A stretch of 64,000 bases of DNA from Cellulomonas sp. S1-8 (GTDB lineage Bacteria; Actinomycetota; Actinomycetes; Actinomycetales; Cellulomonadaceae). Positions 24,194 through 58,143 of the stretch are shown here, piece after piece. Location of the stretch: contig NZ_CP110806.1 of assembly GCF_026184235.1 (NCBI RefSeq), positions 3,596,001 through 3,660,000 on the forward strand, written 5' to 3'. The notes under the pieces are model-generated. The model saw only the letters and a list, made by a program, of their open reading frames with translations. It ran no database searches and was not told the origin of the DNA. Made by a program: the position numbers and the translations under genes. The stretch's first letter is position 1. Every line of letters begins with the position of its first letter.

Positions 24194-24218
24194 CGGTCTC
24201 TCCTTGGTCGTCGGGATG

Positions 24219-30015: not shown

Positions 30016-31067
30016 GCCGGCTCCGACGCCGTCGGCTGCTGCGCGGCGAGCTCCTTGCTGCGGTCGCCCTTGCCCGGGAACGGCGCGCCCACGCGCGTCG
30101 TGTACGCGTTCTCCAGGTACTCCGGGAAGGTGTGGACCGGCTCGAGCCTGCCGCCGCCCTGCGCCTTCAGCACGAAGTACAGGGCGAAGACCAGCGCCGT
30201 GAAGAGGCTGATCTGCACGACCTGCGTCTCCTTGGTGAAGAAGTACAGCCCGAAGTGGCTGCCCGACGCCGACACCCAGAACGGCAGGAGGAAGAAGAGC
30301 GTGTTGCCCTTCAGCCTGCTCATCAGCAGCGACATCCCGATGCCCAGCACGCACAGCTGCGCGGTGTACAGGGGCCACGCGGTCGCCAGCTCGAACGAGG
30401 CGAACACGTTGCCCGGGGCGACGAAGATGCCGATGCCGAGGCCCGTCAGGGCACCGGCCCGGACGCGGCTGCCCGTGGCGCGGTGCATGAGCGGCAGGAA
30501 GAACCCGAACCAGCCGATCGCGATCGCGATCATGCCGACTTCCATGTAGGACAGCTCGAGGAACCGCACCAGGCCGTCCACGAAGCCCATCGGCTCCGGC
30601 GGCACCTCGATGCCGAACAGCTGGCACACCCACCGCACCGCGAAGATGTACAGCAGCATGAGGCCCATGAGGACCGGGATCCAGACGAGGTCCTTCCTGC
30701 GGGGCACCCAGGTGCGGAGGTAGTTGGCCACCCCGCGCCAGCCGTCGTACCAGAACAGCACGACGAACGCGGCGATGGCCGGGCTGTGCAGCACGAGGAC
30801 CACGACGGGGCTCGTGGTCTCGAGCTCACCCAGGATCCCCGCCATGTACTCGTAGTCGGGCAGGTAGAGCGCCACGACGCCCCACAGCACACCGATGGTG
30901 AGCGTCACGTAGAGGGCGAGGTACTTGCCGTACCCCTTCAGGCCCAGCCTCCCCCTCGTGCCCGCCGACGGCGTCGCCGCGGGCTCGGCCGTCTCGGTCC
31001 GGACGCCCTCGGGCTCCGCGGTGGAGGACACAGCAGCTTCGGACACGGTCTTTCCTTCCGGACTCAT
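30012..31067 (-). CDS. Multi-pass membrane protein, degenerate CPBP-like
   Basis: The 351-aa protein has an N-terminal hydrophilic tail (about 50 aa) and at least eight membrane helices. The central stretch IGWFGFFLPLMHRATGSR and the following helix resemble the core of CPBP (Abi) intramembrane peptidases (usual EExxxR ... G-x-LLP). The expected Glu-Glu pair and the later His are not visible (I-A-I and VAP instead), so a peptidase activity is unlikely. CPBP-like proteins often serve as self-immunity or maturation factors for secreted toxins. The call is a weak structural resemblance; transport or protection in the cluster is inferred. ATGA overlap with the aminotransferase. Confidence 0.6.
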   Translation of the reverse strand: MSPEGKTVSEAAVSSTAEPEGVRTETAEPAATPSAGTRGRLGLKGYGKYLALYVTLTIGVLWGVVALYLPDYEYMAGILGELETTSPVVVLVLHSPAIAAFVVLFWYDGWRGVANYLRTWVPRRKDLVWIPVLMGLMLLYIFAVRWVCQLFGIEVPPEPMGFVDGLVRFLELSYMEVGMIAIAIGWFGFFLPLMHRATGSRVRAGALTGLGIGIFVAPGNVFASFELATAWPLYTAQLCVLGIGMSLLMSRLKGNTLFFLLPFWVSASGSHFGLYFFTKETQVVQISLFTALVFALYFVLKAQGGGRLEPVHTFPEYLENAYTTRVGAPFPGKGDRSKELAAQQPTASEPA

Positions 31068-32401
31068 GAGTAGATCTCGTCGATCTGGTGCTTGGCCTCG
31101 ACCAGGGCCTTCGGCGCCCGGTCGGCGAAGAACTCGACGTCGGCGTCGGACAGCGAGGCGTTCGCGTACATCCGCGAGATGCTCGACACGAGGACGCCGT
31201 GCCGCGCGAGGGCGGAGGTGACGACGATGTCCTTGCCCATCAGGTCGAAGTCGTACTGGGAGGGCGCCTCCAGCGGCGTCTCGCGGCAGTGGAACGAGGC
31301 CAGCCCTGCGGGGCCCTGCACGATCAGCGGCAGACCCACCCGCTCCGCCTCGGCGCGGAGGATCTCCTGGATCGCCACGACGCGCCCGCGCATGCCGGTC
31401 AGCGCCGCCTCGTCGTCGCGGCCGAGGATCTCGAACGTCGCCCGCACGGCGGCCGTGCCCAGCGAGTACCCGTTGAACGTGCCCGCGTGGACGACCCTCT
31501 TGCTCTCCAGCAGCTCCATGATCGAGCGCTTGCCGGTCAGCGCGGCGATCGGGACGCCGCCACCGGCGAGCGCCTTGCCGAAGGTGGCCAGGTCCGGCGT
31601 CACGCCCAACGCCTTCTGGGCGCCGCCGAGCCCCATCCGCATGCCGGTGATCACCTCGTCGAAGATGAGGACGACGCCGTACCGCGTGCACAGCTCGCGC
31701 ACCCGCTCCAGGTATCCCGGGGCGGGTTCGACCGAGCCGCCGTTGACGCACACCGGCTCGGTGAGCACGCAGGCGATCTCCTCACCGCGTTCGGCGAGCA
31801 ACGTCTCCAGGGCGTCCGCGTCGTTCCACGGCAGCATGAACGACTGGTCGGCCATGATGTCGGTGGCGCGTCCGGCGGTGCCCTTGAGGTCACCGCGGAA
31901 GTCCACCGGGACGGGGTCGGCGCGGTCGGGCACGCGGCCGCCCATGATGTTGTCGTAGCTGCCGTGGTAGTGGTTCTCGAACCGCACGAACCGGTTCCGC
32001 CCCGTGTACGCGCGCGCCAGGCGGAGCGCCGCCTGCAGGACCTCCGAGCCGGACACGGCGAACCGGACCATCTCCGCGCAGGGGATGTGCCGGTTCATGA
32101 GCTCGAGCGCGTCGGCGTCGAAGTCCGTGTGGCTGGCGCACAGCACGTCCCGCATCGCCGTCCCGAGCGCCTCGATGTACTCCTCGTGGGAATGCCCGAG
32201 GATCATCGCCCCGAATCGCGCGTACAGGTCGAGGTACTCGTTGCCGTCCATGTCGAAGAGACGACTGCCCCGGCCGCCCGTGAAGTGGATCGGCACCTCT
32301 TCCCAGGGCATGTTGAAGTTGTAGTGCACGCCGCCGGGCAGGACCTTCTTGACCCGGTCGTGGTAGGCGCGGTTCGACGTCGTGTCCAGGGTCGCCGTCA
32401 T
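31064..32401 (-). CDS. Class III PLP aminotransferase (GSA aminomutase-like, AMT)
   Basis: The 445-aa protein is a stand-alone class III aminotransferase. The PLP-binding Lys is Lys276 in ATFGKALAGGG; FDEVITGMRMG holds the Asp that contacts the pyridine nitrogen. It resembles glutamate-1-semialdehyde aminomutase and the AMT domains of iturin-type synthetases, which turn a beta-ketoacyl thioester into a beta-aminoacyl thioester. It follows the KS-ACP gene with an ATGA overlap. In a cluster without any ketoreductase, this is the most likely enzyme to process a beta-keto group. It may instead form a free amino acid building block. Confidence 0.88.
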   Translation of the reverse strand: MTATLDTTSNRAYHDRVKKVLPGGVHYNFNMPWEEVPIHFTGGRGSRLFDMDGNEYLDLYARFGAMILGHSHEEYIEALGTAMRDVLCASHTDFDADALELMNRHIPCAEMVRFAVSGSEVLQAALRLARAYTGRNRFVRFENHYHGSYDNIMGGRVPDRADPVPVDFRGDLKGTAGRATDIMADQSFMLPWNDADALETLLAERGEEIACVLTEPVCVNGGSVEPAPGYLERVRELCTRYGVVLIFDEVITGMRMGLGGAQKALGVTPDLATFGKALAGGGVPIAALTGKRSIMELLESKRVVHAGTFNGYSLGTAAVRATFEILGRDDEAALTGMRGRVVAIQEILRAEAERVGLPLIVQGPAGLASFHCRETPLEAPSQYDFDLMGKDIVVTSALARHGVLVSSISRMYANASLSDADVEFFADRAPKALVEAKHQIDEIYS

Positions 32402-34377
32402 GCGGCACGCTCCTCGGCGAGGTACGCGCTGATGTCGTCGACCGTCTTGAACTCGAAGAGCGCGACCGGGTTGATGTCCATGTCGAGCTCCTTGCGCAGG
32501 CGGTTCACGATCTTCAGCGCCTGGACCGAGGACACGCCGAGCTGCGCGAAGCCCTCGTCGTCCCCGACGTCGCCGGGGGCGATGGACAGCTCAGAGGCGA
32601 TCCCCTTGATGAGAACGGCCTTGATCTCGTCCTTCGTCATGTCAGTTCCTTTCGGTGGGTCAGCATCCAGCCAGTACGGCAGCCGGGAGAAGGGATACGG
32701 ATCGAGACGGAGGGTCGTCCCGGTCCCGTCAGGGAAGAACTCGGTCCAGTCGATCGCGCCGCCGTGGAGGAACCGCTCGGCGGCGGCCTCGAGCGTCCGC
32801 GGCGGTTCGCCCTTGGGACGGCGGTCGGGCTTGGCGACGTGGTTCATGCGGGTCTGCGTCACCGCACCGGTCGCCGGGTCGAGGACGGCGGTCGCCCGCC
32901 AGGCGTAGGCCGGGCGGAAACGGGCGAGCGTCATCGCGAGGTCGTACGGGTCGGCGCCGCCGGCGGTGTGCCGTTCGACCTCCGTGAGCATCTGGCGCAG
33001 CGCGTCCTGCGACGTCGCCGAGAGACAGACCACCGGCTCCGGCAGCGCACCGCGCGGGCGCCCGCCGTCGTCGGCCTCCTCGACCACGACGTGCACGTTC
33101 GTCCCGCCGAGACCGAGCGACGTGATGGCGCCGACCCGCGGCCGTCCGTCCACCCGTGGCCACGGCCGGGGTGACGTCATCACCTCGAACGGCGTCCGCT
33201 CAAGCCGGAGCAGCGGGTTGATCGTCGTGAGGTGCACGTTCGGCGCCATCTGCCCGTTCCTCAGGCTGAGCAGGAGCTTCGCGAGGCCGGCGCCGCCGGC
33301 GGCGCTCAGCAGGTGCCCGATGTTGGACTTGACGGAGCCGAGCCCGATCTTCGCGTCGCCGAAGTCCTCCTTGCGGTAGACCTTCGACAGCGCGTTCACC
33401 TCGATGGGGTCGCCGACCCGGGTGCCTGCGCCGTGCGTCTCGATGTAGCCGACCGCGGTGGGGTCCACGACGCCGTCCGCGTACGCGTCGCGGATCACGG
33501 CGCCCTGACCGCGCGGGTTGGGCGCCATGATGCTCAGCGACGAGCCGTCGTTGTTGATGGCGTGCGCCGCGATCCGTCCGTAGATCCTGCGGTTCCGCGC
33601 CCGCGCGACGTCCTGGCGCTCCAGGACGACCACGACCACGCCCTCGCCGATCAGCGTGCCGTCCGCCTCCTCGTCGAACACGCGCGTGTGCGGGTGCGAC
33701 GTCGTGATGCCGCCGGCGTTGCACAGCATCGTCGTGTAGGCGGCGCTGAGCAGGTTGACCCCGCCGACGACGGCGCCGTCGCACCCCCCGTTCCGGATGG
33801 AGTCGATGCCCTGCACCAGTGCCGAGAGGAACGACGAGCAGGCCGTGTCCACGGCCATGACCGGTCCGGTGAGGTCGAACTGGTGGGAGATCCGCGCGGC
33901 CAGCGCACCGTGGTACGTGTTCATGATCGTGCGCGGGGGCAGACCGGCCGGGCCGTGCTCGTCGAGGTAGCGGCAGACGAGGCCGTAGTAGGGGTTGCCG
34001 GTCATGGCCATGTGCACGGAGTAGCGCCGGCTGTCGCTCACGCCCGACTCGGCCAGACCGGCATCGCACAGGGCGTCGTACGCGACCTCCATGCCGACCC
34101 GGTGCTGCGGGTCCATGAACCTCGCCTCGTGCTCGTCGATGCCGAAGAACCCGGCGTCGAACAGCTCGATGCCCTCGACCTCGCCGATGACGTCGTCCCA
34201 CCACGGCGCGCGCGCGAGCGCACGACGGCGGGCGCTGACCGGAGCCGTGCGGACGACGCCGTCGATGAGGAGCTGCCAGAAGTCGTCCTGGGTGGCGGCG
34301 CCGGGCAGGCGCAGCGCCAGGCCGGTGATCACCACGGGCGTGGCCGACGCGGCGGCGGTGGCGGGGACAGCGGTCAT
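32398..34377 (-). CDS. KS-ACP polyketide synthase protein lacking an AT domain
   Basis: The 659-aa protein has a ketosynthase (about 17-440) with Cys180 in DTACSSFLS and His residues in ETHGAGT and KSNIGHLLSAAG. A linker of about 130 aa follows, then an ACP with GVSSVQALK (Ser617 expected). The linker keeps the KS-AT adapter and the post-AT motif (LHGGAIDWTEFF, LDPYPFSRLPYWL), but the acyltransferase between them is gone. It must be loaded in trans. ATGA overlaps join it to the giant synthetase upstream and to the aminotransferase downstream. It may make the beta-ketoacyl-ACP that the aminotransferase converts. Confidence 0.92.
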   Translation of the reverse strand: MTAVPATAAASATPVVITGLALRLPGAATQDDFWQLLIDGVVRTAPVSARRRALARAPWWDDVIGEVEGIELFDAGFFGIDEHEARFMDPQHRVGMEVAYDALCDAGLAESGVSDSRRYSVHMAMTGNPYYGLVCRYLDEHGPAGLPPRTIMNTYHGALAARISHQFDLTGPVMAVDTACSSFLSALVQGIDSIRNGGCDGAVVGGVNLLSAAYTTMLCNAGGITTSHPHTRVFDEEADGTLIGEGVVVVVLERQDVARARNRRIYGRIAAHAINNDGSSLSIMAPNPRGQGAVIRDAYADGVVDPTAVGYIETHGAGTRVGDPIEVNALSKVYRKEDFGDAKIGLGSVKSNIGHLLSAAGGAGLAKLLLSLRNGQMAPNVHLTTINPLLRLERTPFEVMTSPRPWPRVDGRPRVGAITSLGLGGTNVHVVVEEADDGGRPRGALPEPVVCLSATSQDALRQMLTEVERHTAGGADPYDLAMTLARFRPAYAWRATAVLDPATGAVTQTRMNHVAKPDRRPKGEPPRTLEAAAERFLHGGAIDWTEFFPDGTGTTLRLDPYPFSRLPYWLDADPPKGTDMTKDEIKAVLIKGIASELSIAPGDVGDDEGFAQLGVSSVQALKIVNRLRKELDMDINPVALFEFKTVDDISAYLAEERAA

Positions 34378-37300
34378 CGTGGGCCTCCGACCTGGTGCAG
34401 CACCCGGGCGTCGCTGATCCACTCGACGTGGAGGGCGTCGTCGTCGTGCCAGACGTTGATGTGGGTGCGCGCCAGGCCGGGTCCGCCGCTCGGCGAGACC
34501 TCCGGCATCTCGTCCGCGGGGATGTGGCCCTGGAAGTTGACGAGGGTCAGGTCGAGCTTCCCCAGGTCGTTCCAGTAGGCGGCTCGGAGCGCGTGGAGGT
34601 CCTCGGCGCGCAGCGGTCCGGCCTCGCCGAGGCCCTCGGGCTCGGCGGCCAGCGCGGAGACGAAGTTCAGGCCGGACCGCTGCGCCCGGGCGAGGCGGTC
34701 CGCCACCGCGGCCTGGTCGCCGTCGCCCGTCAGCAGCACGGGGACGACGTCGAGGAACTCGCCCACGCAGTCGGACCAGTCCTGCCCCGCCCAGCGACGC
34801 GAGCTGGTCACGAAGCCGATGGCGACCCGGTCCCCACCGCTGTGCCGGGCGAGCTGCGCGTGCAGGACGGCGAAGGCCGCGTCCAGCGGGTTCTCGCCGC
34901 CGACCAGCGGAAAGCTGTACCGCTGGACCGGGGCCCGGGACGCCGCGGGCTCCCCCGCGACGGCGTGCCCCGCCCGGAGGTTCGCCGCGAGCCAGTCGGC
35001 GTGGTCGAAGCCCTCGAGGCCTCCCCTCCAGTCCGGGGCGTCGGCGAGGGCCGCGAGGTACGCGCCGAACTGCCGCGGAGCGGGGAGCTCCACGCCCCGG
35101 GCGGCACGCACCGTCTCGTCCCGCAGGATCCCTGCGCTGAACCCGTCGAAGACGGCGTGGTGGAAGGCCCAGACCAGCCGCAGCTCGTCGTCGGAGACCC
35201 GGACCACCACGCACCGCCAGAGCAGGCCGTCGGTGAAGGGCTGCGCCTGCAGGGCGTGCGCCAGGTCACCGACGAGGGCGGCGACCTGGTCCCTGTCGAT
35301 CCGGCGGGCGTCCTGGACCGCGATCAGGCCGGACAGGTCACCGAAGGCGTCGGGGCCGACGATCTCGAAGGAGTCCCCCACGAGGCGGGCGCGGAGGGAC
35401 TCGTGGCGGACCACGGTCCGCCCGATGCCGTCCCGCAGGTCCTCGACGTCGACGCCCGTGACGGTCTGGATGAAGCCGCCGGTCTCGGTGCCGCTGGCGC
35501 GGTGCAACCGGGCCAGGGCACCGATGTCGAAGCCGTGCGCGGCGGGCTCGCCCGCGTAGGACTCCGCGACGCGGTGGGCGTCGTGGGCAGCCCAGGAGAC
35601 GATCCTGCGGAACTGGTCCGCGGAGACCGCGCGCCGCGGCTCCCCGCCGCGGTCCGCGGGCTCCGGCTGCGCGCCGGCCGGGGGCTCGGGCTGCAGGAAC
35701 GCGCGCAGAGCGTCCGCCGTCGGGTGCCGGTACAGGTCGCTCACCTGCAGCTCCGCACCGGACTCCCGGAGCCTGCGCACCACGGCGATCGCCTGGAGCG
35801 ACTGCCCGCCGGCGGCGAAGAAGTCAGCGGTCCCGGCCAGCTCCGGCGCCGCGAGGACCTCCCGGAAGACGGCCAGCACATCGCCCACCGGCCGGCTCCC
35901 GACCGCGTCCGGAGCCGTCCGGGCCCCGGCGGCACCCACGGGGGCGTCGATCCGGGCGGCCAGCCGTGCACGGTCGACCTTGCCGTGCGACGTCAGCGGG
36001 AACTCCGGCAGGACGATCACGCGCTGCGGGACCATGTACCGCGGCAGCCTCGTGGCGAGCTGGTCGCGCAGCCCGGCCTCGGTCGGCCCGTCCGTCGTCG
36101 GCTCCGCCCGGCAGAACCCGGTCAGCCGGCTGTCGTTGCCGTCCTTGGTGTGGACGACGACGGCGTCGGACACCCCGGGGCAGCCCTGGAGCGCGAGCTC
36201 GATCTCGGAGAGCTCGATCCGGTACCCGGCGTGCTTGACCTGCCGGTCGATGCGGTCGAGGTAGACGATGCGTCCGGCGTCGTCCAGCACCACGCGGTCG
36301 CCCGTGCGGTAGACGCGGCCGGCGACCCCGGCGAGGCCGTCCACGAACTTCTCGGCCGTCAGCCCGGGCCGCTGGTGGTAGCCGAGCGCGACGCTCGGGC
36401 CGCCCACGCAGAGCTCGCCGGGCACCCCGCGCGGGACGTCGGTGCCGTCCGGGTGAACGATGTAGAGGTCACGGTTCCGGGCGGGGCCACCGATCGGCAT
36501 CCGCGCGAAGTCCGGGTACTCGTCGACACGGAAGGACGTCGTGCAGACCGACGCCTCCGTGGGCCCGTACAGGTTCCAGAGCCTCCCGGCCCCCAGCACG
36601 TCGAAGGCGCGCTGTGCCGCCCACGGCTGCATCGCCTCGCCGCCGACGTACAGCGCGGACATCCCCGCGACCGCCTCGGGACGCTCCGCCATCAGCAGGT
36701 GGAACACCGCGGTGATGAGGATGCCTGCGTCGACCCGTTCCTCGCGGAGCAGGTCCGCCAGGAGGTTCATGTCCCTGGCGTGCTCGTGGCCGCCCATGAC
36801 GAGGGTCGCGCCGGCGAGGAGCGCGCTGTGGACGTCGAGCAGCGACGGGTCGAAGGTGCAGCCCGTCAGGTGCAGGACCCGCATCCCCGGGGCGTAGTCC
36901 ATGTAGCCGTTGTCCGAGCAGGTGCTCAGCACGCCGCCGTGGGTGACGAGGGTGCCCTTGGGCAGGCCCGTCGTGCCCGACGTGTAGATCATGACCAGGG
37001 GGCTGTCGGCCGTGACGTCCGACGGCGGTGCGTACGTCCCGGTCAGGTCCTGGGGACGGCGGGCGACGACGCCGGGCCGCTCCCACGCCTCCGGCGCCGT
37101 GGCCAGGACCACGGCGGCACCGCTGTCGGCCAGGATCCCGGCGACCCGCTCGTCGGGCAGGTCCACGTCGAGCGGGACCTCGATCGCGCCGCACTTCATG
37201 AGCGCGACGCGGGTGAGGACCTGCCACGGCCCGCGCTCCAGGAGGCAGAGCACGAAGTCACCGGTGCGGACCCCCGCGTCCTGGAGCCCTCCGGCCAGGT

Positions 37301-40300
37301 CGTCGGTGAGGCGGTCGAGGTCCGCGTAGCTCCACTCCTGCCCGTCCCAGCGCAGTGCGGGCAGGTCCGCGTGCTCGGCGAACGACTCCCGGATCCGGGT
37401 CAGCAGCGGCTCGGTGATCGCGGGCCCCGCGGCGGTCAGCTCGGCGCGCCGCCTCGCGTGCTCGTCCGGCGTCTCCAGCGGCAGCTCCGCGACGCGGCGT
37501 CCGGCGTCCTGCGTCATGGCGAGCAGCAGCAGGTCCAGCTGGGCACCGAGGCGCGCGATCGTGGCGTGGTCGAACATCTCGGTGCGGTACTCGATGTCCA
37601 CCACGAGGTCGTCCGTGCGCTCGGCGACGCTGAAGGAGAGCGCGTAGCGGCTCTTGACCCGGCCGTGCGGCAGCGGCTCCATCCGGACGCCGTCGAGCTC
37701 GAGCTCCTCGGTGCCGGTGCTGACGTAGTTGAGCAGGACGTCGAACAGCGGGTTCGCGTCACCGCCGGGCCGGATGCCGAGCCGGGCCAGCACCGCCTCG
37801 AACGGTGCGTCCTGGTGGCCGAGCACGGCCGCCACGCTGTCCTTCGCCGCCGCGACCGCGTCGCGCACCGTGCGGTCCGACAGGTCGGTGACGCGCAGCG
37901 GCAGGGTGTTCACGAACATCCCCACGGTGTGCTCGCTCCCGGGGACGTGCCGGCCGGACACGGCCGTGCCCAGCAGGAACTCCCGCTGGCCGCTGTACAG
38001 GCCGAGCACGCGGGTGAGGGCGGCGAGGAACACCATGTACGGCGTCGCGCCGCACTCCCGGGCCAGGTCGGTCACGGCCCGACGGCTCGCCGTGCAGGTC
38101 AGGCCGTGCCGGTCGCCGTCGAGCGTGGCGGGCTCCGGCGGGGTGCGGTCCGCCGGGAGCTGGAGCCGCGGGAGGTCGCCGCGCAACGCGGTGGCGAAGT
38201 ACTCCACGTCCGCATCGAGCCGGCCGGTCTCCGCCAGCCGGGCCAGCGCGGCGACGTGGTCGGCGTACGGCAGGGGCGCCGCGGCCGGGGACCGGCCACG
38301 CAGAGCGCGGGAGAGGTCGTCGGCGATGACGCCCAGGGAGGTCTGGTCCCCGACGATGTGGTGCAGGTCGAGCAGGAGGTAGTGCAGGTCGTCGCGGACG
38401 CTCAGGATCTCGACCCGCAGCAGCGGGGCGTCGGTGAGGTCGAACGGCCGCGGCCCGGCCGCGAGGCGGGCCTCGACCTCGGCAGCGGTGGCCGTGACGA
38501 CGCGGACCACGTCCGGCACCTCGGTGCGCACGCGCTGCACCAGCGTGCCGTCGTCGGCCAGGTGGAACGACGTGCGCAGCTGCTCGTGCCGCCCGACGAT
38601 CTGCCGGAACGCGTCCCGGAGCCGCTCGACGTCGAGCCGGCCGGTCACCCGGTACGCGATGGCGAGGTTGTACGCCGTGTCGTCGTCGCGGAGCGCGCAG
38701 ACGGCGTACATCCTGCGCTGCGCGGGCGACGCCGGCGTCTCGACGACCTCGGCAGGGGCGGGGCGTGCGGGGTCGGTCGACGGCGGGGTCGGCGTGGACG
38801 CCTGGGTCTGCGCCGCCCTGGCGGTCAGGAGGGTGCGGATCGCGGCGTAGCTCGCGTCGGTGAACATCTCGCCGACGGTGATCGCGACGCCCGTGCGCTT
38901 CTCGACGAGCGCGGTGAACCTCACCGCGGCCAGGGAGTCGCCGCCCGAGCGGAGGAAGTCCGCGTCGTCGGTGGGCTCGGAGCCGAGCACCTCGACCCAG
39001 GTCCCGCGCACGGCCTCGTGGTCGAGGCCGGTCGTGACCGCCGGAGGCTCGACGTCGGACGCGAGGCCCAGGTCGTCCCAGCGGATGTCGGAGAGGAAGG
39101 GACGCGGCTCGAACGCGTAGCCCGGCGCCGGGACGCGCCGGCCGTCCGCGCAGAACAGCGTCCTGTCGACGTCGGCACCGCGCACCCAGCGGGTCGCGAG
39201 CACCCGCCGCAGGACGTCGAGCGTGACCAGGCCACCCGTCTCGGCAGGGGTGATCACCTCCGGCACCGCCTGCAGCGCCCGCTCCGGCGCCGTCCCGGCC
39301 CTCAGGTGCCCCATCGCCTCGCCGGAGCTGATCTCCGCGGTCGCGACGCCGAGGGCGATGCGCAGCAGCCGGTCGTCCCCGACGCGTGCGTGCAGGCTGT
39401 CGGGCCCGGCGAAGCGGGCGATCGCCACCCGGACCACGAGCTGGGAGATGCGATCGATCGGGGGGTTGTCCGGCGTGCCGACGTCGGACAACGCCGCGCG
39501 CACCTGGGCACGCAGGCCGTCCTCGAAGACGCTGAGCACGAGGTTCAGCGCCCGGACGAACGGCTGACCGGCCGGGGAGGTGTCGTCCGGCAGGCCAGCC
39601 GGGAGCGTCAGCCGCACCCCGTCCGACGCGTCGATCGCGAGCGCGTGCGCTCCCGGCTCGATCCACTCGAGGGCTCCGCCGGGCACACGGATCGCGGCGG
39701 CGCGGTGCTCGAACTGCGCGCGGCCCCGGGCCAGGGTGGCCGAGACGTCGAGCGCCGGGCCGCCCGCACCGAGGAAGTCCGCCAGCGCGTCCTGCATCCG
39801 GCGCCGGGACCTCTCGGTGCGCGCCGAGACGGGGAAGAGGCACTCGCCGCCGTCGTCCCTGTCCGACGGCTCCGGGCGCACCGGGGCGGGCTCCAGGATG
39901 ACGTGCGCGTTGGTGCCGCCGATCCCGAAGGAGCTCACGGCGGCGAACGGCACGCCCCCGGCAGGGGCCGTCGCCCGGGTGGGCACGTAGATCGAGCCCG
40001 CGGCGTCGATGCCCCGGTTCATGGCCGTGAAGTTGGCCATCGGCGGGATGATGCCGCGGTGGACGACGCCGACGGCGCCGAAGAACCCGGCGACGCCCGC
40101 GGCCGCGTCGAGGTGGCCGACGTTGGCCTTGGCCGCGCCCAGCGCGACCGGGCGGCTCCCGCCGTAGACGTTGGCGAGCGCCTGGTACTCGATCGGGTCG
40201 CCGTGCACGGTGCCCGTACCGTGGGTCTCGACGTAGATGACGTCCTCGGCCTCGACGGCGGCGTCCGAGAGGGCGCTGCGGATGACCTGCTCCTGACCGC

Positions 40301-43300: not shown

Positions 43301-46300
43301 CCGGCCTCACCTCGAGCTCGCGGGCCGCGATCCCGTCGATCGCGACGTCGTGCCGCTCGATGTTGTGGTAGTCGAACGACACGTCGCACAGCGGGTGCCG
43401 GCCGGGGACCCGCTCCAGGCCGAGCGCGTCGACGACCCGGTCGAACGGCACGTCCTGGTGCTGCAGGGCGTCGACCACCGCGCTGCGGCTCGCGTCGAGG
43501 TAGTCGCCGAACGACGTCGTCGGCTCCGGGCGGAGCCGGATCGGCATCATGTTGACGAACATGCCGACCATCTCCTGCGTCTCCGCGAGGGTCCGACCGG
43601 CCACCGGCGCGCCGATCACGAGGTCGTCGCGGCCGGTCGTGCGGGCGAGCGTCGCGCCCCAGGCGGACAGCAGGACCATGAACGGCGTGGCGTCGTGCGC
43701 CTCCGCGAGCACCCGCACGCTCCGCATGCGGGCAGGGTCCAGGTGCTGCTTCACGCGTCCGGCTGCCCCGTCCCGCGCGGCGCCGCGCGGCCGGTCCGTG
43801 GTGAGGAGCGCCGCCGTCGGCGCGTCCCGCAGGGTCTCCAGGAGCTGCGCCGCGGACTCGGCGACCAGCCGGGCACGGGTCTCGTCGTGGTGCACGACGA
43901 CGTCCTTGTAGTGCACGTCGAGCGGTTCGAGGTCGCCGGCGTACAGGGCGCCGAGATCGCGGGCGATGATCTCGGCGGAGACCGCGTCGGCGACGATGTG
44001 GTGGATGTCGAACAGCACGAGGCTGCCGCTGCTGCCGCCGTCGACCACCTCCATGCGGAACAGCGGGCCGGTGCCCAGGTCGAAGGGCCGCACGAAGCGG
44101 TCCATGAGCCCGTCGACGACGTCCTGGCCCACGTGTGCCGCGGTGGAGAAGACGAGCGGCAGCGGACCGGTCGTGCCGGGATCCGCGATCGCCTGCCGGA
44201 GCCCGCCGTCGCGCAGCGCGAAGGTGGTGCGCAGCGGCTCGTGCCGCGCGACCAGGCGGCCCACGGCGGTGCGCAGCGCGTCCGGGTCGAGCGTGCCGTC
44301 GAGCCACGTGGCGGACGCCATGTTGTAGACGAGCGCGGCGGGGTCGAGCTGCGCCGCGATGTACATCCGGACCTGCGCAGGGCTGAGCGGGTAGTCGTCC
44401 TGCGCGGGTGCGGGTGCCAGGCGGTGCACGCCCGCCGACGGCGCACCGTCCGCCGCGGCCCGCGCCGCCGGGGCGAACCGCTCCGCGAGCGCCGCGGGCG
44501 TCGTCGCCGCGAACACGTCCGCGACGGTGACGACCACCCCGAGCCGCGAGCTGAGCAGTGCGGCGAGCCCGGTCGCCTTGAGCGAGTCCCCGCCGAGCGC
44601 GAAGAAGTCGGCGTCGGCGGCGACCTCCGGGTACCCGAGCACGGCGACGAACGTCGCCTGCACCGCGGCGACGAGGTCGACGTCACCGCCGGCGGGACCG
44701 GCCACGTCGGCGGACGGGGAGGCAGGCAGGGGCCGGACGGCCGCGGCGCCGCCGGAGGCGACCCTGGTGGTCGTGGTGACGGGGTGGGGATGGCGGTCGA
44801 AGGAGTAGGTCGGCAGGGAGATGCGCCGGCCCGTGGTGTGGTGGGTCCAGTCCACGGGCAGCCCGGCGCTCCACAGGGTGCCGAGGGCGTTCAGCAGCCA
44901 CGCCTCGTCCGCATCCTTCTCCGCGGCGCGCTTCAGCACGTGGACGAACACGTGGTCGTGCCGCTTGCCGGGGTCGTGCGCCGCGAACGTCGAGAGGCTC
45001 GGACCCGGTCCGATCTCGACGCCGAACAGCGGCCCGTCCGCCAGCAGCGTCGCGAGGCTCGTGGCGAACCGGACCTCGCCGGTGATGTGGTCACCCCAGT
45101 ACGCCGGGTCCGTCATCTCGCCCGGCCCGACGACCTCGCCCGTGCGGTTCGAGATGATCGGCACCGCCGGGTCGCGCGTCGTGACGCCGGCGACGGCCTC
45201 CTCGAACGCCTTCGCGGCGTCGCTCATCATCGGCGTGTGGAAGGCGTGCGACGTCTGCAGCGGGATGCCCAGCAACCCGGCGTCGTCGAGCTGACGGACG
45301 ACGGCGTCGACCACCTCGCTCCGCATCCCGACCACGGACCGCATCGCGGAGTTGTCCAGCGACAGCCAGACCCCGTCCATCCCCGCGATCACGTCCCGGA
45401 CCTGTGCCGCGGGCGCGAGCACGGCGATCATCACGCCCGGCTCCTGGGCCTGCATGAGTCTGCCCCGCTCACGGACCAGCCGCACGGCGTCGCCGAGCTC
45501 CCACACGCCCGCGAGCGCCGCCGCGGTCAGCTCGCCGATGCTGTGCCCCACCAGCACGTCGGGGACGACGCCGAAGGCCTCCAGCACCTTCGCGGCCGCG
45601 AGCTGCGAGCCGAACAGCGCGAGCTGCGACCACTCGGTGCGGTGGATCCGCTTGTCGCCCTCGGGGCCGTACAGCACGTCGCGGAGCTGGGCCGCCTCGT
45701 CGTCGGCGAGGTGACCGATGACCTCGTCCATCCACCGGCGGAAGAGCACGCCCGACGGGCTGTCGCTCAGGTACAGCCCGCGCCCCATCGCGTGGTACTG
45801 GTTCCCCTGCCCGGAGAACAGCAGCGCCGTCCGCGCGCCGGACCGGGCCTGCGTGGCCGGGGCGGAGCGGAGCCGTTCCGCCCACCGCTCCGCGTCCCGG
45901 GGCTCGGCCGCCGACACCACCATGGTCTTGCGGTGCGTGAGCTGGGCGCGTCCCTGGCACAGCGTCCGGGCGGCGTCGCTCACGGACACGTCCGCGTGCG
46001 TCGCGATGTGCCGGACGACGGCGTCCGCCGTGCGGTCCAGCGCCTCCGGGCTGGCCGCGGAGAACTGCAGCACCTCGTACGCGTTGTCCTGGGTGGCGCC
46101 GGCCCGGGGGCCCTCTTCGACGATCATGTGCACGTTGGTCCCGCCGACGCCGAAGGAGTTGATGCCCGCGCGCAGAGCGCGGCCGCGCCAGGGCTCGCCC
46201 TGGCTGGTGACCCGGAACGGGGTGCTCCGGAAGTCGATGTGGGGGTTGGGGTCCGCGTAGTTGCGCGTGCCCGGCAGGTACCGGTGCTCGAGGCTGAGCG

Positions 46301-49300
46301 CGACCTTGCTCAGCCCCACCGACCCGGCGGCGGAGTCCGTGTGGCCCACGTTCCCCTTCACGGAGCCGAGCAGGACCTCGCCCGCGGGGACGCCCTCGAA
46401 GGCCCGTGCCAGCGACGCGACCTCGATCGGGTCGCCGAGCAGCGTCCCGGTGCCGTGCGCCTCGACGTAGCTGACGGTCGCCGGGTCGATCCCGGAGGAC
46501 TCGTAGGCGGCGCGGATCGTCTCGCACTGGCCGTCCTCGCTGGGCGCGGTGTACGAGAGCTTGCGACGCCCGTCGTTCCCCACGGCCGAGCCCTTGATGA
46601 CCCCGTAGACCCGGTCGCCGTCCCGAACGGCAGCGTCCACCGGCTTGAGCATCACCAGTGCCGCGCCGTTGGAGAACATGGTGCCCGCCGCGCGCGCGTC
46701 GAACGGCCGGCAGTGGCCGTCCGGGGAGAACATCATGCCGTCGGCATAGTGGTACCCACCGCCGTTGGGCAGCTCGAGGGTGACACCGCCCGCCACGGCC
46801 AGGTCGCACTCGCCGAGGCGGAGCGACTGCACGGCCAGGTGCACCGTCAGCAGCGACGTCGAGCAGCCCGTCAGTGCCGACATGGACGGCCCGGTCAGGT
46901 CGAACTGGTAGGACAGCCGCGTGCTGAGGAAGTGGTTCGTGGCCAGCGTGAAGTTCTGGTAGGCGTCGCCGTACCTGTCGGCGCCGATCACCTTGTCCTG
47001 GTACCAGGCGAAGTCGTCGTTGCCACCCGCGAACACACCGACCCGGCCGGGCAGCGCGGTCGGGTCGTAGCCTGCGTCCTCGCAGACCTGCCAGAAGGTC
47101 TCGTAGAGCAGGCGCAGCTGGGGCGAGGTGGCGTCGGCCTCGGCCGGCGGGATGCGGAACAGGGTGTGGTCGAACGCACCGACCCCGTCGAGGCGACCGG
47201 CGGCCTTGACGTACTGGGGGGCGGCGATGTCGCTCTCCGGGACGCCGAGCGCGCGCAGCTCGTCGTCGTCGTAGAACGTGATGCCCTCGGCACCGTCGCG
47301 CAGGTTCGACCAGAACTCGTGCACGCCGCTCGCGCCGGGCACCTGGATGCCGATGCCGATGACGGCGATGTCGCAGGGCACGGCGGCCGGGGCCGTGGGG
47401 GCCGCGGCGGTCTCGGCGGTCTCGCCGGTCCCGGCAGTCTCGGACGGCTCCTGGTGCGAGGGCTCCTCGAGATCCTCGAACAGCCCTGCCTGCGCCTCGA
47501 CCGTCGGGTGCTTGAGCAGCTCCGTGACCCGGACCTCGCGGCCGAACTCCTCCTTCAGCTCCAGCTGGAGGCTCATCAGGCTGAGCGAGCTGCCGCCCTG
47601 CTCGAAGAACGAGGCGCGCGGGTCGAGCGTGCTCGTGCCGAGCACCGTCCGCCAGAGCGCCGCGACGCGCTCGGTGACGGGGGTGCCGCCGGGCGCGGCG
47701 GTGCCGGTGCGTGCCGACGACCCGCGGGTGGCCTGCGCGTCCGGCGACGCCACCGCCTGGTCCCCCGGTGCGGGCAGCCCTGGCGCGGCGCCCGCCTGCG
47801 CCCGCATCGCCGCGAGCTGCTCCTTGAGCGCCCTGCGGTCCAGCTTGCCCGCCGTCGACGTGGGCAGCGCGTCGATCGCCAGCAGGACGGACGGGATCAT
47901 CTGCGGTTCGAGGGTGCGGGCCAGCGCGGCCCGCACGTCGGCCGTCGTCGGCTCGGTGCTCGCACCCGTCGAGGCCCGCGTCGTGTAGAAGCCCGCCAGG
48001 CGCGGCGGGACGACGCCGTCGTCGATCACGACCGCCGCCTCGACGACACCCTCGGTGCGCAGCAGCGCCTGCTCGATCTCGCCGAGCTCCATCCGCACGC
48101 CGCCGACCTTGACCTGGCGGTCGATGCGCCGGATGAACGCGAACCGGCCGTCCTCGCGCAGGTGACCGAGGTCGCCGGTGCGGTACATGCGCCGCATGTG
48201 CTCGGGGTCGCGGGCGTCGTCGAAGAACGGGTTCGCGACGAACTGCTGCGCGTTGAGCTCGTCCCGGTTCAGGTAGCCGACGCCGACACCGGCACCCGCG
48301 ATGCACACCTCGCCCGGCACGTCGACGCCGCACAGGGCGTCGGAGCGTGCCACGACGTAGACGCGGTAGTCGTTGAGCGGCGTGCCGATCGGGGCGATCC
48401 GGGCGGTGTCCGCGGAGGTGATGGTGGTGTGGGTCGCCCACATCGTGGCCTCGGTCGGGCCGTAGACGTTCTCCAGGGAGCAGGTCAACGGCAGGGCGCA
48501 GAACCGTTCGACGATGTCCGCCGTCAGCGCCTCGCCCCCGCTGAACACGTACGTCAGCGACGCGAGGGCGGCCGCACGGTCGCCCGACTCGGCGGCTCCC
48601 ACGAGAAGGCGCAGCATGGTGGGCGTGAAGTTCACGTGCGTCACGCCGGCGGTGCGGATCGCGTCGACCACCGCCAGGACGTCGCCCTCGTGGCCGGGCG
48701 GCAGGACGTGCAGGCGCCCGGCGCCGACCAGCCAGCCGTAGACCTCCGTGCCGAAGATGTCGAACGTGAAGGCCGTCTTCAGCAGGTAGACGTCGTGCGC
48801 CCGCAGCGGGAAGCGTCGTTCCAGGTCGAGGGCGGTGTTCTGGATGTTGGCGTGGGTGATGACGACGCCCTTGGGGACGCCCGTCGACCCGGAGGTGTAC
48901 TCGATGTAGAGGACGTCGTCCGGGGACACGTCGACGTCGGCGGGCCGCACGCCGATCTCGACCCGCTCGTCGTCGCGCAGGGCGACGAGCTCGTCGATCG
49001 TGTCGATGTCGAGGCGCATGACGCCGTCGGGGAACGCGGCGTCCGCATCCGACGTGGTCAGCACGACGGCGATGTCCGCGTCGCGGAAGATCTGCGCGAG
49101 CCGCTCGGCGGGCGTCCCCGCGGACAGCGGCACGTAGGCGGAGCCGGCCAGAGCGGTGCCGAAGACCCCGGCGAGCAGCTCCGCACCGCGCGGGAGCAGG
49201 ACGGCGACGCGCTTCTTCTCGCCGCCCGTGAGGTCGAGCAGGCGGCGCTGCACCACGACGGCCGCGTCGTGGGCCCAGGCGTTCGAGTACTCGCGGGAGG

Positions 49301-50720
49301 CGTCGGACCAGGCGATCCCTGCCGGGTCCGCCGTCGTCCTCGCGAGGAACAGGTCGCCGAGGTGCGTCGGGGTCCAGTCGTAGAAGTGGGTCTGCGAGAG
49401 CTCCGCCAGCAGGGCGGCGTCGGCGGCGGCCGACGACTCGCGGAGCGACGCCGCGGGCTCGTCCAGCGAGGTGGGGACCTGCTCGAGAAGGGTCACGTAG
49501 CGGTCCGCGAACCGCCGGATCTTCTGCTCGCTCAGGACCGGGTCCTTGTACTGGAAGACCAGCTCCGTGGCGCCGTCGACCTGCTCCAGGATGACGGTGA
49601 GCGTGCCGGGGAAGGGAACCGGATCTTGCCGCACCGCGCTGACGTCCTGCCGCACCGCGCCGTGCACGCCCTCGGGGTAGCTGAACGCGTCGTGGATGAA
49701 CGTCACGTCGAACACGCGGGCGAGGGCCGGGTGGTCGCCCAGCAGCCTCGTCACCGGGTGGTCGAGGTGCTTCCAGGAGCCCAGCACCGCCTTGTGGAGC
49801 CGGCCGAGCAGCTCCCGGACGGTCGCCGTCGCCGTCGCGTCGACGTGGACGGGCAGCGTCCGGATGAAGCAGCCGATGCTGCGCTCCATCTCGAGGGCCG
49901 GCCGGTCGGTGAACGGGATCGACACGGCGACGTCGTCGGTGTGCGCGTACCGGGCGAGCAGCAGGCCGAACACGCCCAGGTAGACGGTGTACTCGGAGAC
50001 CTCGGCGTCCCGGGCACAGGTCCGCAGCGCGTCGACCAGCCGGGCGTCCACGGGCACGCGGACCTCCCGTCCGACGACGTCGCCCGCGGTGGGGTCGAGC
50101 CAGTGCGACAGGTCCGGCGCCTCCTGGCGGGCGAGGCTCTGCTCCCAGAACTCCCGGTTGCGGGCGGCCTTGCGCTCGCTGGGCTGCTGGGTCTGCTTCT
50201 CCTGGTAGACGGCGAGTCCGGCGTCCTCCACGACGTCCGCGGCGAGGTCGTCGTCGCCGAGCGCGAGCTCCATGACCTGCTCGACCAGGTAGCTGACGGA
50301 CAGTCCGTCCGCGACGAGGTGGTGGCAGACGACGACGGCCTGGTCCTCGCCGTCGAACCGGGCGTGGACCACGCGGAACAGCGGCGCGGTCTCCAGGTCG
50401 AAGGGAGCGGACGTCGCCTCGGCCACGATCGCGTCGAAGGCGTCCTGGGCGCCGTCCTGCCCCCGCAGGTCGTGGGAGGTGACCGGCGTCTCGACCTCGT
50501 CGGCCGGCACGACGACGTACGAGACGCCGCCACGGAGGTTCCGCACGGCGCTGCGCAGCGCCGGCTGCGCAGCCATCACGCGCCGGACCGCACCGCCGAA
50601 CCGCTCGGGCAGGACCTGCGCGATCCGCAGGTGCACCGCGACGTGATAGTCCGACGCGTTCCGGACCTGGGCGTCGAAGTACATTCCGAGCTGCGACGAC
50701 GACATCGGGAGGACGTGCAT
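34374..50720 (-). CDS. Giant NRPS-PKS hybrid synthetase, 5448 aa
   Basis: Domains in order by motif: C1 (HHLVADG, His133-134); A1 (YTSGSTGVPKG at 608); T1 (Ser1044); KS1 (from 1117, Cys1286 in LTGCSTSLL); AT1 (GHSIGEL Ser1727, SHAFH = malonyl type); T2 (Ser2046); C2 (HHIVADA, 2240); A2 (FTSGSTGRPKG at 2701); T3 (Ser3095); KS2 (from 3196, Cys3364 in TACSTSL); decayed AT (about 3615-3900); T4 (Ser3929); C3 (HHIVGDQ, 4120); A3 (YTSGTTGLPKG at 4579); T5 (Ser4974); C4 (HHAVFDG, 5187). There is no KR, DH, ER, E, MT or TE domain. Expected backbone: aa-malonate-aa-malonate-aa, with C4 joining or releasing the chain. A-domain pockets (for example FDIFGTEVYG in A1, FDIFTFESL in A2, FDPSLLDVH in A3) do not match a specificity I can name with confidence. 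The ATG at 50720 follows GGGAG. Confidence 0.96.
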   Translation of the reverse strand: MHVLPMSSSQLGMYFDAQVRNASDYHVAVHLRIAQVLPERFGGAVRRVMAAQPALRSAVRNLRGGVSYVVVPADEVETPVTSHDLRGQDGAQDAFDAIVAEATSAPFDLETAPLFRVVHARFDGEDQAVVVCHHLVADGLSVSYLVEQVMELALGDDDLAADVVEDAGLAVYQEKQTQQPSERKAARNREFWEQSLARQEAPDLSHWLDPTAGDVVGREVRVPVDARLVDALRTCARDAEVSEYTVYLGVFGLLLARYAHTDDVAVSIPFTDRPALEMERSIGCFIRTLPVHVDATATATVRELLGRLHKAVLGSWKHLDHPVTRLLGDHPALARVFDVTFIHDAFSYPEGVHGAVRQDVSAVRQDPVPFPGTLTVILEQVDGATELVFQYKDPVLSEQKIRRFADRYVTLLEQVPTSLDEPAASLRESSAAADAALLAELSQTHFYDWTPTHLGDLFLARTTADPAGIAWSDASREYSNAWAHDAAVVVQRRLLDLTGGEKKRVAVLLPRGAELLAGVFGTALAGSAYVPLSAGTPAERLAQIFRDADIAVVLTTSDADAAFPDGVMRLDIDTIDELVALRDDERVEIGVRPADVDVSPDDVLYIEYTSGSTGVPKGVVITHANIQNTALDLERRFPLRAHDVYLLKTAFTFDIFGTEVYGWLVGAGRLHVLPPGHEGDVLAVVDAIRTAGVTHVNFTPTMLRLLVGAAESGDRAAALASLTYVFSGGEALTADIVERFCALPLTCSLENVYGPTEATMWATHTTITSADTARIAPIGTPLNDYRVYVVARSDALCGVDVPGEVCIAGAGVGVGYLNRDELNAQQFVANPFFDDARDPEHMRRMYRTGDLGHLREDGRFAFIRRIDRQVKVGGVRMELGEIEQALLRTEGVVEAAVVIDDGVVPPRLAGFYTTRASTGASTEPTTADVRAALARTLEPQMIPSVLLAIDALPTSTAGKLDRRALKEQLAAMRAQAGAAPGLPAPGDQAVASPDAQATRGSSARTGTAAPGGTPVTERVAALWRTVLGTSTLDPRASFFEQGGSSLSLMSLQLELKEEFGREVRVTELLKHPTVEAQAGLFEDLEEPSHQEPSETAGTGETAETAAAPTAPAAVPCDIAVIGIGIQVPGASGVHEFWSNLRDGAEGITFYDDDELRALGVPESDIAAPQYVKAAGRLDGVGAFDHTLFRIPPAEADATSPQLRLLYETFWQVCEDAGYDPTALPGRVGVFAGGNDDFAWYQDKVIGADRYGDAYQNFTLATNHFLSTRLSYQFDLTGPSMSALTGCSTSLLTVHLAVQSLRLGECDLAVAGGVTLELPNGGGYHYADGMMFSPDGHCRPFDARAAGTMFSNGAALVMLKPVDAAVRDGDRVYGVIKGSAVGNDGRRKLSYTAPSEDGQCETIRAAYESSGIDPATVSYVEAHGTGTLLGDPIEVASLARAFEGVPAGEVLLGSVKGNVGHTDSAAGSVGLSKVALSLEHRYLPGTRNYADPNPHIDFRSTPFRVTSQGEPWRGRALRAGINSFGVGGTNVHMIVEEGPRAGATQDNAYEVLQFSAASPEALDRTADAVVRHIATHADVSVSDAARTLCQGRAQLTHRKTMVVSAAEPRDAERWAERLRSAPATQARSGARTALLFSGQGNQYHAMGRGLYLSDSPSGVLFRRWMDEVIGHLADDEAAQLRDVLYGPEGDKRIHRTEWSQLALFGSQLAAAKVLEAFGVVPDVLVGHSIGELTAAALAGVWELGDAVRLVRERGRLMQAQEPGVMIAVLAPAAQVRDVIAGMDGVWLSLDNSAMRSVVGMRSEVVDAVVRQLDDAGLLGIPLQTSHAFHTPMMSDAAKAFEEAVAGVTTRDPAVPIISNRTGEVVGPGEMTDPAYWGDHITGEVRFATSLATLLADGPLFGVEIGPGPSLSTFAAHDPGKRHDHVFVHVLKRAAEKDADEAWLLNALGTLWSAGLPVDWTHHTTGRRISLPTYSFDRHPHPVTTTTRVASGGAAAVRPLPASPSADVAGPAGGDVDLVAAVQATFVAVLGYPEVAADADFFALGGDSLKATGLAALLSSRLGVVVTVADVFAATTPAALAERFAPAARAAADGAPSAGVHRLAPAPAQDDYPLSPAQVRMYIAAQLDPAALVYNMASATWLDGTLDPDALRTAVGRLVARHEPLRTTFALRDGGLRQAIADPGTTGPLPLVFSTAAHVGQDVVDGLMDRFVRPFDLGTGPLFRMEVVDGGSSGSLVLFDIHHIVADAVSAEIIARDLGALYAGDLEPLDVHYKDVVVHHDETRARLVAESAAQLLETLRDAPTAALLTTDRPRGAARDGAAGRVKQHLDPARMRSVRVLAEAHDATPFMVLLSAWGATLARTTGRDDLVIGAPVAGRTLAETQEMVGMFVNMMPIRLRPEPTTSFGDYLDASRSAVVDALQHQDVPFDRVVDALGLERVPGRHPLCDVSFDYHNIERHDVAIDGIAARELEVRPAGVAMDLVITCTETADGLAVELDYAAGLFDRATIERLVMCFEALLVAACQDDDLPIGRIPLGTPTDAIRARLVAAPFTPVHELVAQRAAEHPAAVAVIDGNGDRYTFAQLDGMANAQAARLVDAGLRLGEHVALFTRRDVNLLVAQLAILKAGGAYLPIDPEQPVARQERILADAAPRFAFAEPGLAAAPAVGTVFDLTTCTARTAPAPAGRPAGPVVGPDVPAYAVFTSGSTGRPKGIQVKHRGVTNLWHDHAARGIFAPGDVIISLADPTFDIFTFESLLPLASGAAVHMCPVDDQKDAAAIAQRVEAYGVTHIQAPVSKMAALCGNRLFRAQLPALRVVVCGGEHFSENLLALLLQESGARVFNMYGPTETTVTATVKEFAPGDDVTIGSAVSGAAVIVVGEDGTILPAGEPGELCIAGEGLAVGYINDPEKTAAAFTTLRELPGVRVYRTGDAGYLRPDGEIVLSGRLDHQVKVNGNRIELGEIEKTAMRADGVTYAVATVSDGDLVLHYTAQDAADRSAAVLAQIDAALPAYMRPARLRQVAEMPKLPNKKVDRAALEAAAGQTAAPTAPTTPTTTAPATAPTAPAGDVLEVILGVWAEVLGRSVSAGDNFFDVGGSSYKLMLVNNRLGEELERSIPLVRLFENPTPRALAEALGHRAVPATGPGRADSSAGPTAAGPAAAGPPAADETGTIAAVDIMGITEWADQRQHAEAQDPGRKIAVIGMAGVLPGAATVAEYWDNRFAGVDSISRFTRDELLDAGFDEATVDDPRYVNARGYVAADTFDADFFEYSAHEAETMDPQVRLLHETAWHALEDAGYVPGEFPGDIALFAGSGTNFAWMARFLRRKDDPIGAFEAMTMNEKDFLATKVAYKLGLTGPAVNVQTACSTSLVAIHQAVSCLRQGEADMALAGGVALNFPRTEGYTWHEGMIFSADGVCRPFSQDANGTVGGQGVGVVLLKPLDAALADGDHIYAVIAGSATNNDGRAKVGYTAPSVRGQEQVIRSALSDAAVEAEDVIYVETHGTGTVHGDPIEYQALANVYGGSRPVALGAAKANVGHLDAAAGVAGFFGAVGVVHRGIIPPMANFTAMNRGIDAAGSIYVPTRATAPAGGVPFAAVSSFGIGGTNAHVILEPAPVRPEPSDRDDGGECLFPVSARTERSRRRMQDALADFLGAGGPALDVSATLARGRAQFEHRAAAIRVPGGALEWIEPGAHALAIDASDGVRLTLPAGLPDDTSPAGQPFVRALNLVLSVFEDGLRAQVRAALSDVGTPDNPPIDRISQLVVRVAIARFAGPDSLHARVGDDRLLRIALGVATAEISSGEAMGHLRAGTAPERALQAVPEVITPAETGGLVTLDVLRRVLATRWVRGADVDRTLFCADGRRVPAPGYAFEPRPFLSDIRWDDLGLASDVEPPAVTTGLDHEAVRGTWVEVLGSEPTDDADFLRSGGDSLAAVRFTALVEKRTGVAITVGEMFTDASYAAIRTLLTARAAQTQASTPTPPSTDPARPAPAEVVETPASPAQRRMYAVCALRDDDTAYNLAIAYRVTGRLDVERLRDAFRQIVGRHEQLRTSFHLADDGTLVQRVRTEVPDVVRVVTATAAEVEARLAAGPRPFDLTDAPLLRVEILSVRDDLHYLLLDLHHIVGDQTSLGVIADDLSRALRGRSPAAAPLPYADHVAALARLAETGRLDADVEYFATALRGDLPRLQLPADRTPPEPATLDGDRHGLTCTASRRAVTDLARECGATPYMVFLAALTRVLGLYSGQREFLLGTAVSGRHVPGSEHTVGMFVNTLPLRVTDLSDRTVRDAVAAAKDSVAAVLGHQDAPFEAVLARLGIRPGGDANPLFDVLLNYVSTGTEELELDGVRMEPLPHGRVKSRYALSFSVAERTDDLVVDIEYRTEMFDHATIARLGAQLDLLLLAMTQDAGRRVAELPLETPDEHARRRAELTAAGPAITEPLLTRIRESFAEHADLPALRWDGQEWSYADLDRLTDDLAGGLQDAGVRTGDFVLCLLERGPWQVLTRVALMKCGAIEVPLDVDLPDERVAGILADSGAAVVLATAPEAWERPGVVARRPQDLTGTYAPPSDVTADSPLVMIYTSGTTGLPKGTLVTHGGVLSTCSDNGYMDYAPGMRVLHLTGCTFDPSLLDVHSALLAGATLVMGGHEHARDMNLLADLLREERVDAGILITAVFHLLMAERPEAVAGMSALYVGGEAMQPWAAQRAFDVLGAGRLWNLYGPTEASVCTTSFRVDEYPDFARMPIGGPARNRDLYIVHPDGTDVPRGVPGELCVGGPSVALGYHQRPGLTAEKFVDGLAGVAGRVYRTGDRVVLDDAGRIVYLDRIDRQVKHAGYRIELSEIELALQGCPGVSDAVVVHTKDGNDSRLTGFCRAEPTTDGPTEAGLRDQLATRLPRYMVPQRVIVLPEFPLTSHGKVDRARLAARIDAPVGAAGARTAPDAVGSRPVGDVLAVFREVLAAPELAGTADFFAAGGQSLQAIAVVRRLRESGAELQVSDLYRHPTADALRAFLQPEPPAGAQPEPADRGGEPRRAVSADQFRRIVSWAAHDAHRVAESYAGEPAAHGFDIGALARLHRASGTETGGFIQTVTGVDVEDLRDGIGRTVVRHESLRARLVGDSFEIVGPDAFGDLSGLIAVQDARRIDRDQVAALVGDLAHALQAQPFTDGLLWRCVVVRVSDDELRLVWAFHHAVFDGFSAGILRDETVRAARGVELPAPRQFGAYLAALADAPDWRGGLEGFDHADWLAANLRAGHAVAGEPAASRAPVQRYSFPLVGGENPLDAAFAVLHAQLARHSGGDRVAIGFVTSSRRWAGQDWSDCVGEFLDVVPVLLTGDGDQAAVADRLARAQRSGLNFVSALAAEPEGLGEAGPLRAEDLHALRAAYWNDLGKLDLTLVNFQGHIPADEMPEVSPSGGPGLARTHINVWHDDDALHVEWISDARVLHQVGGPR
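39021..39878 (-). other. Decayed acyltransferase region in the second PKS module
   Basis: Between KS2 and T4 (about residues 3615-3900) the KS-AT adapter (SARTERSRRRMQDAL) and the post-AT linker (RWVRGADVDRTLFCADG, PAPGYAFEPRPF) are kept. The AT core between them is shortened and has no GHSxG nucleophile; the place reads RVGDDRLLRIALGVATAEIS. The GQGxQ and HAFH motifs are also absent. The region is a vestige and should be inactive. Confidence 0.8.
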
Positions 50721-55565: not shown

Positions 55566-55682
55566 CTAACCAACGTCGGTGCATCGTCGGACACCGACCT
55601 GACGCGAGCAGTATCCCGAAACAATGCAGCACGACGCGATCAGAGATCTGATCAAATCATGCTCGTCGACGTTCGTGACGCC

Positions 55683-56599: not shown

Positions 56600-56792
56600 C
56601 CCTGGTCAGGACTCGCACGTCGTGAGCGAGGTCCCGTCGCGACCTCCGACAATTTGATAGTACAATTATCACCGTTTCCAAAATCTCTGGTCGGCAACGG
56701 AGACAACGTTCGTTCTGTCGCAAGAACGTAAAACGAGTTGAGCAGCAGAATGCTGGGTTCCCGCGATTTTGCCACCACCCTCGATGCGCGAC

Positions 56793-58123: not shown

Positions 58124-58143
58124 GACGGCTCGGTGTCGGCTTC

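Follow-up and report, generated by a model that had tools for sequence, protein, structure and literature searches.

A probable acyltransferase remnant in module two of a three-ketosynthase hybrid assembly line from Cellulomonas sp. S1-8

How does an assembly line with three ketosynthases (KSs) and a single acyltransferase (AT) load malonate onto its carriers? The question is raised by a hybrid nonribosomal peptide synthetase-polyketide synthase (NRPS-PKS) cluster of Cellulomonas sp. S1-8, which lies in a stretch of 64,000 nucleotides, here called the window (contig NZ_CP110806.1, positions 3,596,001 to 3,660,000), of a complete 4.5 Mb one-contig genome. Its giant protein has two PKS modules; module one contains an AT, and module two contains in its place a region that we call X. 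We consider it likely that KS1 and KS2 of this three-KS hybrid line come from modules with their own (cis) AT, that module two lost its AT core long ago, and that X was left as a spacer or scaffold. The parts of the giant gene that bear on this are as follows (positions in the window; C, condensation; A, adenylation; T, carrier).

34374..50720, minus strand: giant hybrid NRPS-PKS, 5448 aa, C1-A1-T1-KS1-AT1-T2-C2-A2-T3-KS2-X-T4-C3-A3-T5-C4 (Pfam matches and motifs)
46101..47369, minus strand: KS1, residues 1118-1540, Cys/His/His kept in 10/10 orthologs
44916..45821, minus strand: AT1, residues 1634-1935, intact, with GHSIG and HAFH (Pfam and motifs)
44466..44678, minus strand: T2, carrier of module one, GGDSL (Pfam and motif)
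39885..41135, minus strand: KS2, residues 3196-3612, Cys/His/His kept in 10/10 orthologs
39066..39872, minus strand: KS-AT linker, X (putative reduced pseudo-AT) and post-AT linker, residues 3617-3885
39246..39650, minus strand: core of X, residues 3691-3825, putative AT remnant without catalytic Ser/His
38817..39023, minus strand: T4, carrier of module two, GGDSL, no cis AT
34377..35603, minus strand: C4, terminal condensation domain, HHAVFDG (Pfam and motif)

Besides the window, we found an orthologous cluster in nine genomes: G165 and G100 (the window's own family), G221 (an Actinomycetota metagenome-assembled genome, MAG, which entered the set through locus L019), G222 (Glycomyces paridis), G223 (a Candidatus Stackebrandtia MAG), G224 and G225 (Glycomyces), and G229 and G238 (the family of G222). 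X is present in module two of all ten clusters, with a length of 130-135 residues and an identity of 36-79% to X of the window in the seven orthologs measured. A full X match occurs in 1 of 81 genomes of the window's genus. KS3 was matched with an E of 2e-234 or lower in 3 of 221 genomes of its family, and KS2 with an E of 1e-200 or lower in 6 of 354 genomes of the family of G222. The state without an AT in module two (AT2) is therefore not special to the genome of the window, and since X is common to all ten clusters, the loss of AT2 is old. One search of the open-licence literature aimed at this cluster, on Glycomyces, found no description of it.

In a Pfam search with a threshold of E up to 0.01, AT1 is the sole Acyl_transf_1 domain of the giant protein (133.4 bits); no AT was matched between KS2 and T4, and none in the neighboring KS-ACP (acyl carrier protein) product. 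The motifs of AT1 lie at residues 1725 (GHSIG) and 1825 (HAFH). GHSIG is kept in 10/10 clusters and HAFH in 8, with QAFH in G100 and NAFH in G229. GHSIG and HAFH are the rule for malonyl-type ATs, and by this motif AT1 is predicted to be one. All ten giant proteins have one AT for two KSs, and this is not the canonical cis-AT arrangement with an AT in each elongating module.

The linkers on both sides of X align with AT-flanking linkers (hhalign E 3.2e-11, a match that takes in the first AT helices, and 9.7e-9). By profile comparison and in an AlphaFold model, where it folds in part, X comes out as a domain of about 135 residues that keeps the N-terminal AT helices and the post-AT linker and has lost about 190 core columns. 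Across linker, X and linker (residues 3612-3899 in the window's protein), Hx[FSYT]H is absent from all ten orthologs, and so is Gx[SC]xG, except for a GTSLG in the linker of G165. In residues 3691-3830, 18 of 140 positions are invariant in the ten, and none is Ser, His or Cys. When module two was aligned with module one by BLAST, the KS and the part from the post-AT linker to the carrier aligned and the AT core did not. A sequence search of the PDB with the C terminus of KS2 through T4 found linker and carrier parts only, and a profile of X matched no X-like domain among 932 six-frame open reading frames (ORFs) of the reference loci. With Foldseek, the top match of X was OzmQ KS1 (4oqj), and the ClbC and ClbK modules were among the best matches. 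The profile matches, together with the predicted fold, point to X as a reduced pseudo-AT, the remnant of an AT. The initial annotation had proposed an intact malonyl-type AT1 and, in module two, both AT-flanking linkers around a shrunken core without the nucleophile Ser; these points hold across the orthologs, and the predicted structure has no intact AT fold. Elsewhere, an NRPS-PKS module in locus L067 (G499:C1:1063576-1064841) has a separately shortened AT, with GRTG at the nucleophile motif and no histidine-motif part seen; it is labelled cis in our reference set despite this defective AT.

Where did KS2 come from? We searched the 354 genomes of the family of G222 with KS2 (E limit 1e-120) and obtained 17 non-orthologous loci, L108-L124. 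An AT match follows the KS in 17/17, in most cases starting at profile position 56-64. GHSxG was found in 15 of these loci, 13 by the pattern alone and two, L116 and L120, by direct reading; the pattern for the second AT motif matched none of the 17, though L116 and L120 read HAYHS. In a tree of 64 rows, KS2 (10 rows) is sister to the KSs of L116 and L120, from two other genomes, with support 99/96, and the modules of these two loci carry an intact AT (GHSTG, HAYHS). Because the sister KS has an intact AT, AT2 was probably lost in situ. The hybrid-line clade of KS1 and KS2 (100/98) also contains four AT-less KSs and is therefore not purely cis. Our AT-less reference KSs were classed solely on whether an AT follows them, so that their trans-AT status is a label only. 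The AT-bearing sister pair speaks against a place of KS2 in a trans-AT clade, and cis-AT descent of KS2 is supported by the sequences. A second mixed hybrid line was seen in two genomes of the family of G222 (L125, 4474-19999, and L126), where an AT-less KS and an AT-bearing module sister to KS2 lie in neighboring genes.

The third KS is encoded next to the giant gene, together with a carrier and an aminotransferase.

32398..34377, minus strand: KS-ACP ORF, 659 aa
32659..34377, minus strand: KS3, flanked by KS-AT and post-AT linkers but lacking an AT; Cys and the two His do not vary among ten orthologs
32398..32640, minus strand: ACP3, joined to KS3 in the window only; its own ATG and an upstream AAAGG are kept
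31064..32401, minus strand: class III aminotransferase; the NCBIfam models that fit best, GntE and glutamate-1-semialdehyde aminomutases, all score under cut-off

The linkers of KS3 match AT-flanking linkers (E 1.1e-7 and 5.7e-9, with a profile of 9 of the 10 rows), and no AT lies between them, as had been noted at first. In the window one ORF covers both domains, but in 9/9 orthologous clusters KS3 and ACP are separate ORFs. At the junction (32640-32670, minus strand), the window is short of two single bases relative to G165 and G221, and the KS3 and ACP frames are therefore fused; either the fusion is genuine or the sequence contains an error here. Elsewhere, KS3 has its two best matches, at about 40%, in a module that lacks an AT and in one that has it. 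A structure prediction of KS3 (605 aa) reached a pLDDT of 48.7 and was not used. In the tree, a long stem separates KS3 from KS1 and KS2. Its ancestry from a cis-AT module is thus unproven at the sequence level, and for the same reason so is the proposal of the initial annotation that an AT3 was deleted as the third step of one series. The wider proposal, a cis-AT system turning into one with a shared AT, stands for the cis descent of KS2 and for X as an AT remnant; it does not stand as a transition in progress, given X in ten clusters.

Which enzyme could then supply malonate? A PF00698 search of the genome of the window returned two proteins, AT1 and a discrete AT at 2572400. The latter is about 1.07 Mb distant from the cluster and, as a 450-aa KS ORF lies 1.5 kb after it, is FabD by context. 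The same search found no dedicated trans-AT in this complete genome, and the cluster does not contain the discrete AT of a canonical trans-AT system. In the nine other genomes there are 29 PF00698 matches, 28 of them over cut-off, with one AT in each giant gene. G224 and G238 have one further AT each and six other genomes more; in the MAG G221, we saw AT1, one PKS AT and no FabD. If both modules elongate, AT1 or the FabD-like protein must supply T4 and ACP3 with malonate, since the genome has only these two ATs. T2 and T4, both with GGDSL, are 42% identical, the highest value of the ten T-T pairs (next, 39%); ACP3 of the window is 28% identical to T2 and 19% to T4.

From these data we infer the following scheme. 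Module two would have lost the catalytic AT core. X, which keeps the N-terminal AT helices together with the linkers on either side, would probably act as a spacer or scaffold, keeping KS2, linker and T4 in register. AT1 would serve T2 and probably T4, within the chain or across the dimer, and FabD would serve ACP3 (discrete in relatives) and possibly T4; AT1 may also load ACP3. KS3, ACP3 and the adjacent aminotransferase may produce or lengthen a beta-amino-acyl unit in the manner of mycosubtilin synthetase. A stronger version, in which the single embedded AT malonylates both T4 on its own chain and ACP3 on another protein with no discrete pathway AT, would make this a shared-AT line, neither cis-AT nor trans-AT, kept in ten clusters of at least two actinobacterial families. 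We regard this version as rather doubtful.

Is X really a passive remnant? We compared dN/dS, the ratio of nonsynonymous (dN) to synonymous substitution rates, among the three closest genomes, G000 (that of the window), G165 and G221, in three pairs. X gave 0.55-0.99, KS1 0.22-0.23, KS2 0.28-0.31 and AT1 0.34-0.71; the ranges of the second KS-AT linker (0.45-1.16), T4 (0.32-0.93) and the disordered linkers (0.37-1.15) overlap that of X. By dN alone, X (0.13-0.15) is intermediate: most enzyme domains lie lower (0.04-0.11, with C4 reaching 0.14) and the disordered linkers higher (0.18-0.46). The relaxed constraint would fit a pseudogene-like decay that set in recently and is confined to this strain, but the same X occurs in ten clusters, and we give this explanation almost no credence. 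Ongoing decay of AT2 is rejected on the same ground. Alternatively, X may be a functional docking platform to which a trans-acting AT (FabD or AT1) binds, comparable to the AT-docking region put forward in trans-AT synthases, rather than just a spacer. Its conserved length fits this, as do its invariant positions in the ten orthologs: the invariant fraction of X is 0.13, against 0/26 and 1/60 positions (0 and 0.02) in two neighboring disordered linkers. It is 0.24-0.27 in the linker domains, 0.22 in T4 and 0.56-0.59 in the KSs. However, a dN/dS well above that of the KSs and overlapping that of the linkers points to weak constraint, and we think a docking platform unlikely. Judged from these alignments, X is weakly constrained yet retained, an old state.

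Module two, and KS3 with it, may also no longer elongate with malonate, KS2 passing the chain on or T4 being skipped, so that no loading AT is needed. The lack of an AT in the module and of a dedicated trans-AT in the genome agrees with this. Against it, 10/10 clusters retain Cys-His-His in KS1 and KS2 and GGDSL in T4, the KS3 residues are invariant too, and the constraint on KS2 comes close to that on KS1; a non-elongating module seems quite improbable to us. We are evenly divided about a further possibility, that the locus holds two independent stories: AT2 decayed in a cis-AT module whose T4 is served by AT1, and KS3, ACP3 and the aminotransferase came in separately, as a beta-amination module that is fed by FabD and lacked an AT in this cluster from the start. 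The long stem of KS3, its separation from the ACP gene in the relatives and the distance of ACP3 from the similar T2 and T4 all favor this, but the AT-flanking character of the KS3 linkers does not, and the spacer between them, longer in 7/10 orthologs than in the window, G221 and G165, also fits a lost AT. Our preferred reading, an old loss of the AT core of module two with X left as spacer or scaffold, remains the likely one.

After the giant gene, the genes follow in the order KS-ACP, aminotransferase, probable membrane protein, thioesterase, MFS transporter, DUF6790, FtsX-type permease, ABC ATPase, discrete ACP and FabF-like KS. The remaining features are as follows.

30015-31064, minus strand: probably membrane-bound protein, about 340 aa, between aminotransferase and thioesterase; no Pfam match
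29266..30633, minus strand: thioesterase gene, thioesterase domain at ORF residues 222-446, start position uncertain
23957..24262, minus strand: second discrete ACP
22597..23817, minus strand: FabF-like KS

The membrane protein has a close relative, also without a Pfam match, in L019, and in L021 a 378-aa ORF without a Pfam match occupies the same position. The second discrete ACP and the FabF-like KS at the cluster end (22597-24262, minus strand) may supply an acyl starter; L021 also has a KS gene there. Upstream of the cluster (54588-63723, minus strand) are three pretoxin-HINT genes, one with RHS repeats.

The locus offers a clean case of AT loss, with an intact-AT sister module, an AT remnant, ten orthologs and only two possible malonate-supplying enzymes in the genome. 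Whether an embedded AT serves foreign carriers becomes directly testable here, which is relevant to the origin of trans-AT synthases and to AT engineering. Mixed cis and trans lines are known, and solved structures exist for the reduced or AT-poor KS modules ClbC, ClbK and OzmQ of hybrid lines. The FK228 (romidepsin) synthetase reportedly has AT-poor PKS modules in a hybrid line that has no discrete cluster AT and is supplied by FabD; in the present line, by difference, one intact AT lies in the same chain. OzmQ of oxazolomycin biosynthesis, the top structural match of X, presumably belongs to an AT-less synthase, whereas the line described here also has a cis-AT module.

The line that makes colibactin in E. 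coli (ClbC, ClbK; 8xbl, 8cjh) is likewise a hybrid NRPS-PKS, in which at least one KS-AT module is intact (ClbI, 8xjy), and the present line shares with it a reduced AT without catalytic residues and an intact AT elsewhere. The structural alignment spans 305 residues of 8xbl versus about 430 of 2qo3, and the shorter span fits ClbC and ClbK, whose structures we take to be those of AT-poor modules. The colibactin cluster has a discrete AT, ClbG, whereas we found none in this cluster. PMC5490422 draws ClbC as KS-AT-T and reports that inactivation of clbG had no significant effect on a compound requiring clbC, clbH and clbI. For mycosubtilin/iturin, PMC3039948 describes the KS, ACP and aminotransferase of MycA, with the malonyl transacylase FenF acting on ACP2: FenF loads malonate and the aminotransferase sets the beta-amine. 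The same set of KS, ACP and class III aminotransferase stands side by side in our cluster, and a function in beta-amination is suggested by this analogy; here, however, the genes are separate and the cluster has no discrete transacylase gene. By these analogies, AT-poor modules fed from elsewhere are already known in kind, and the comparative series for them here is a good one.
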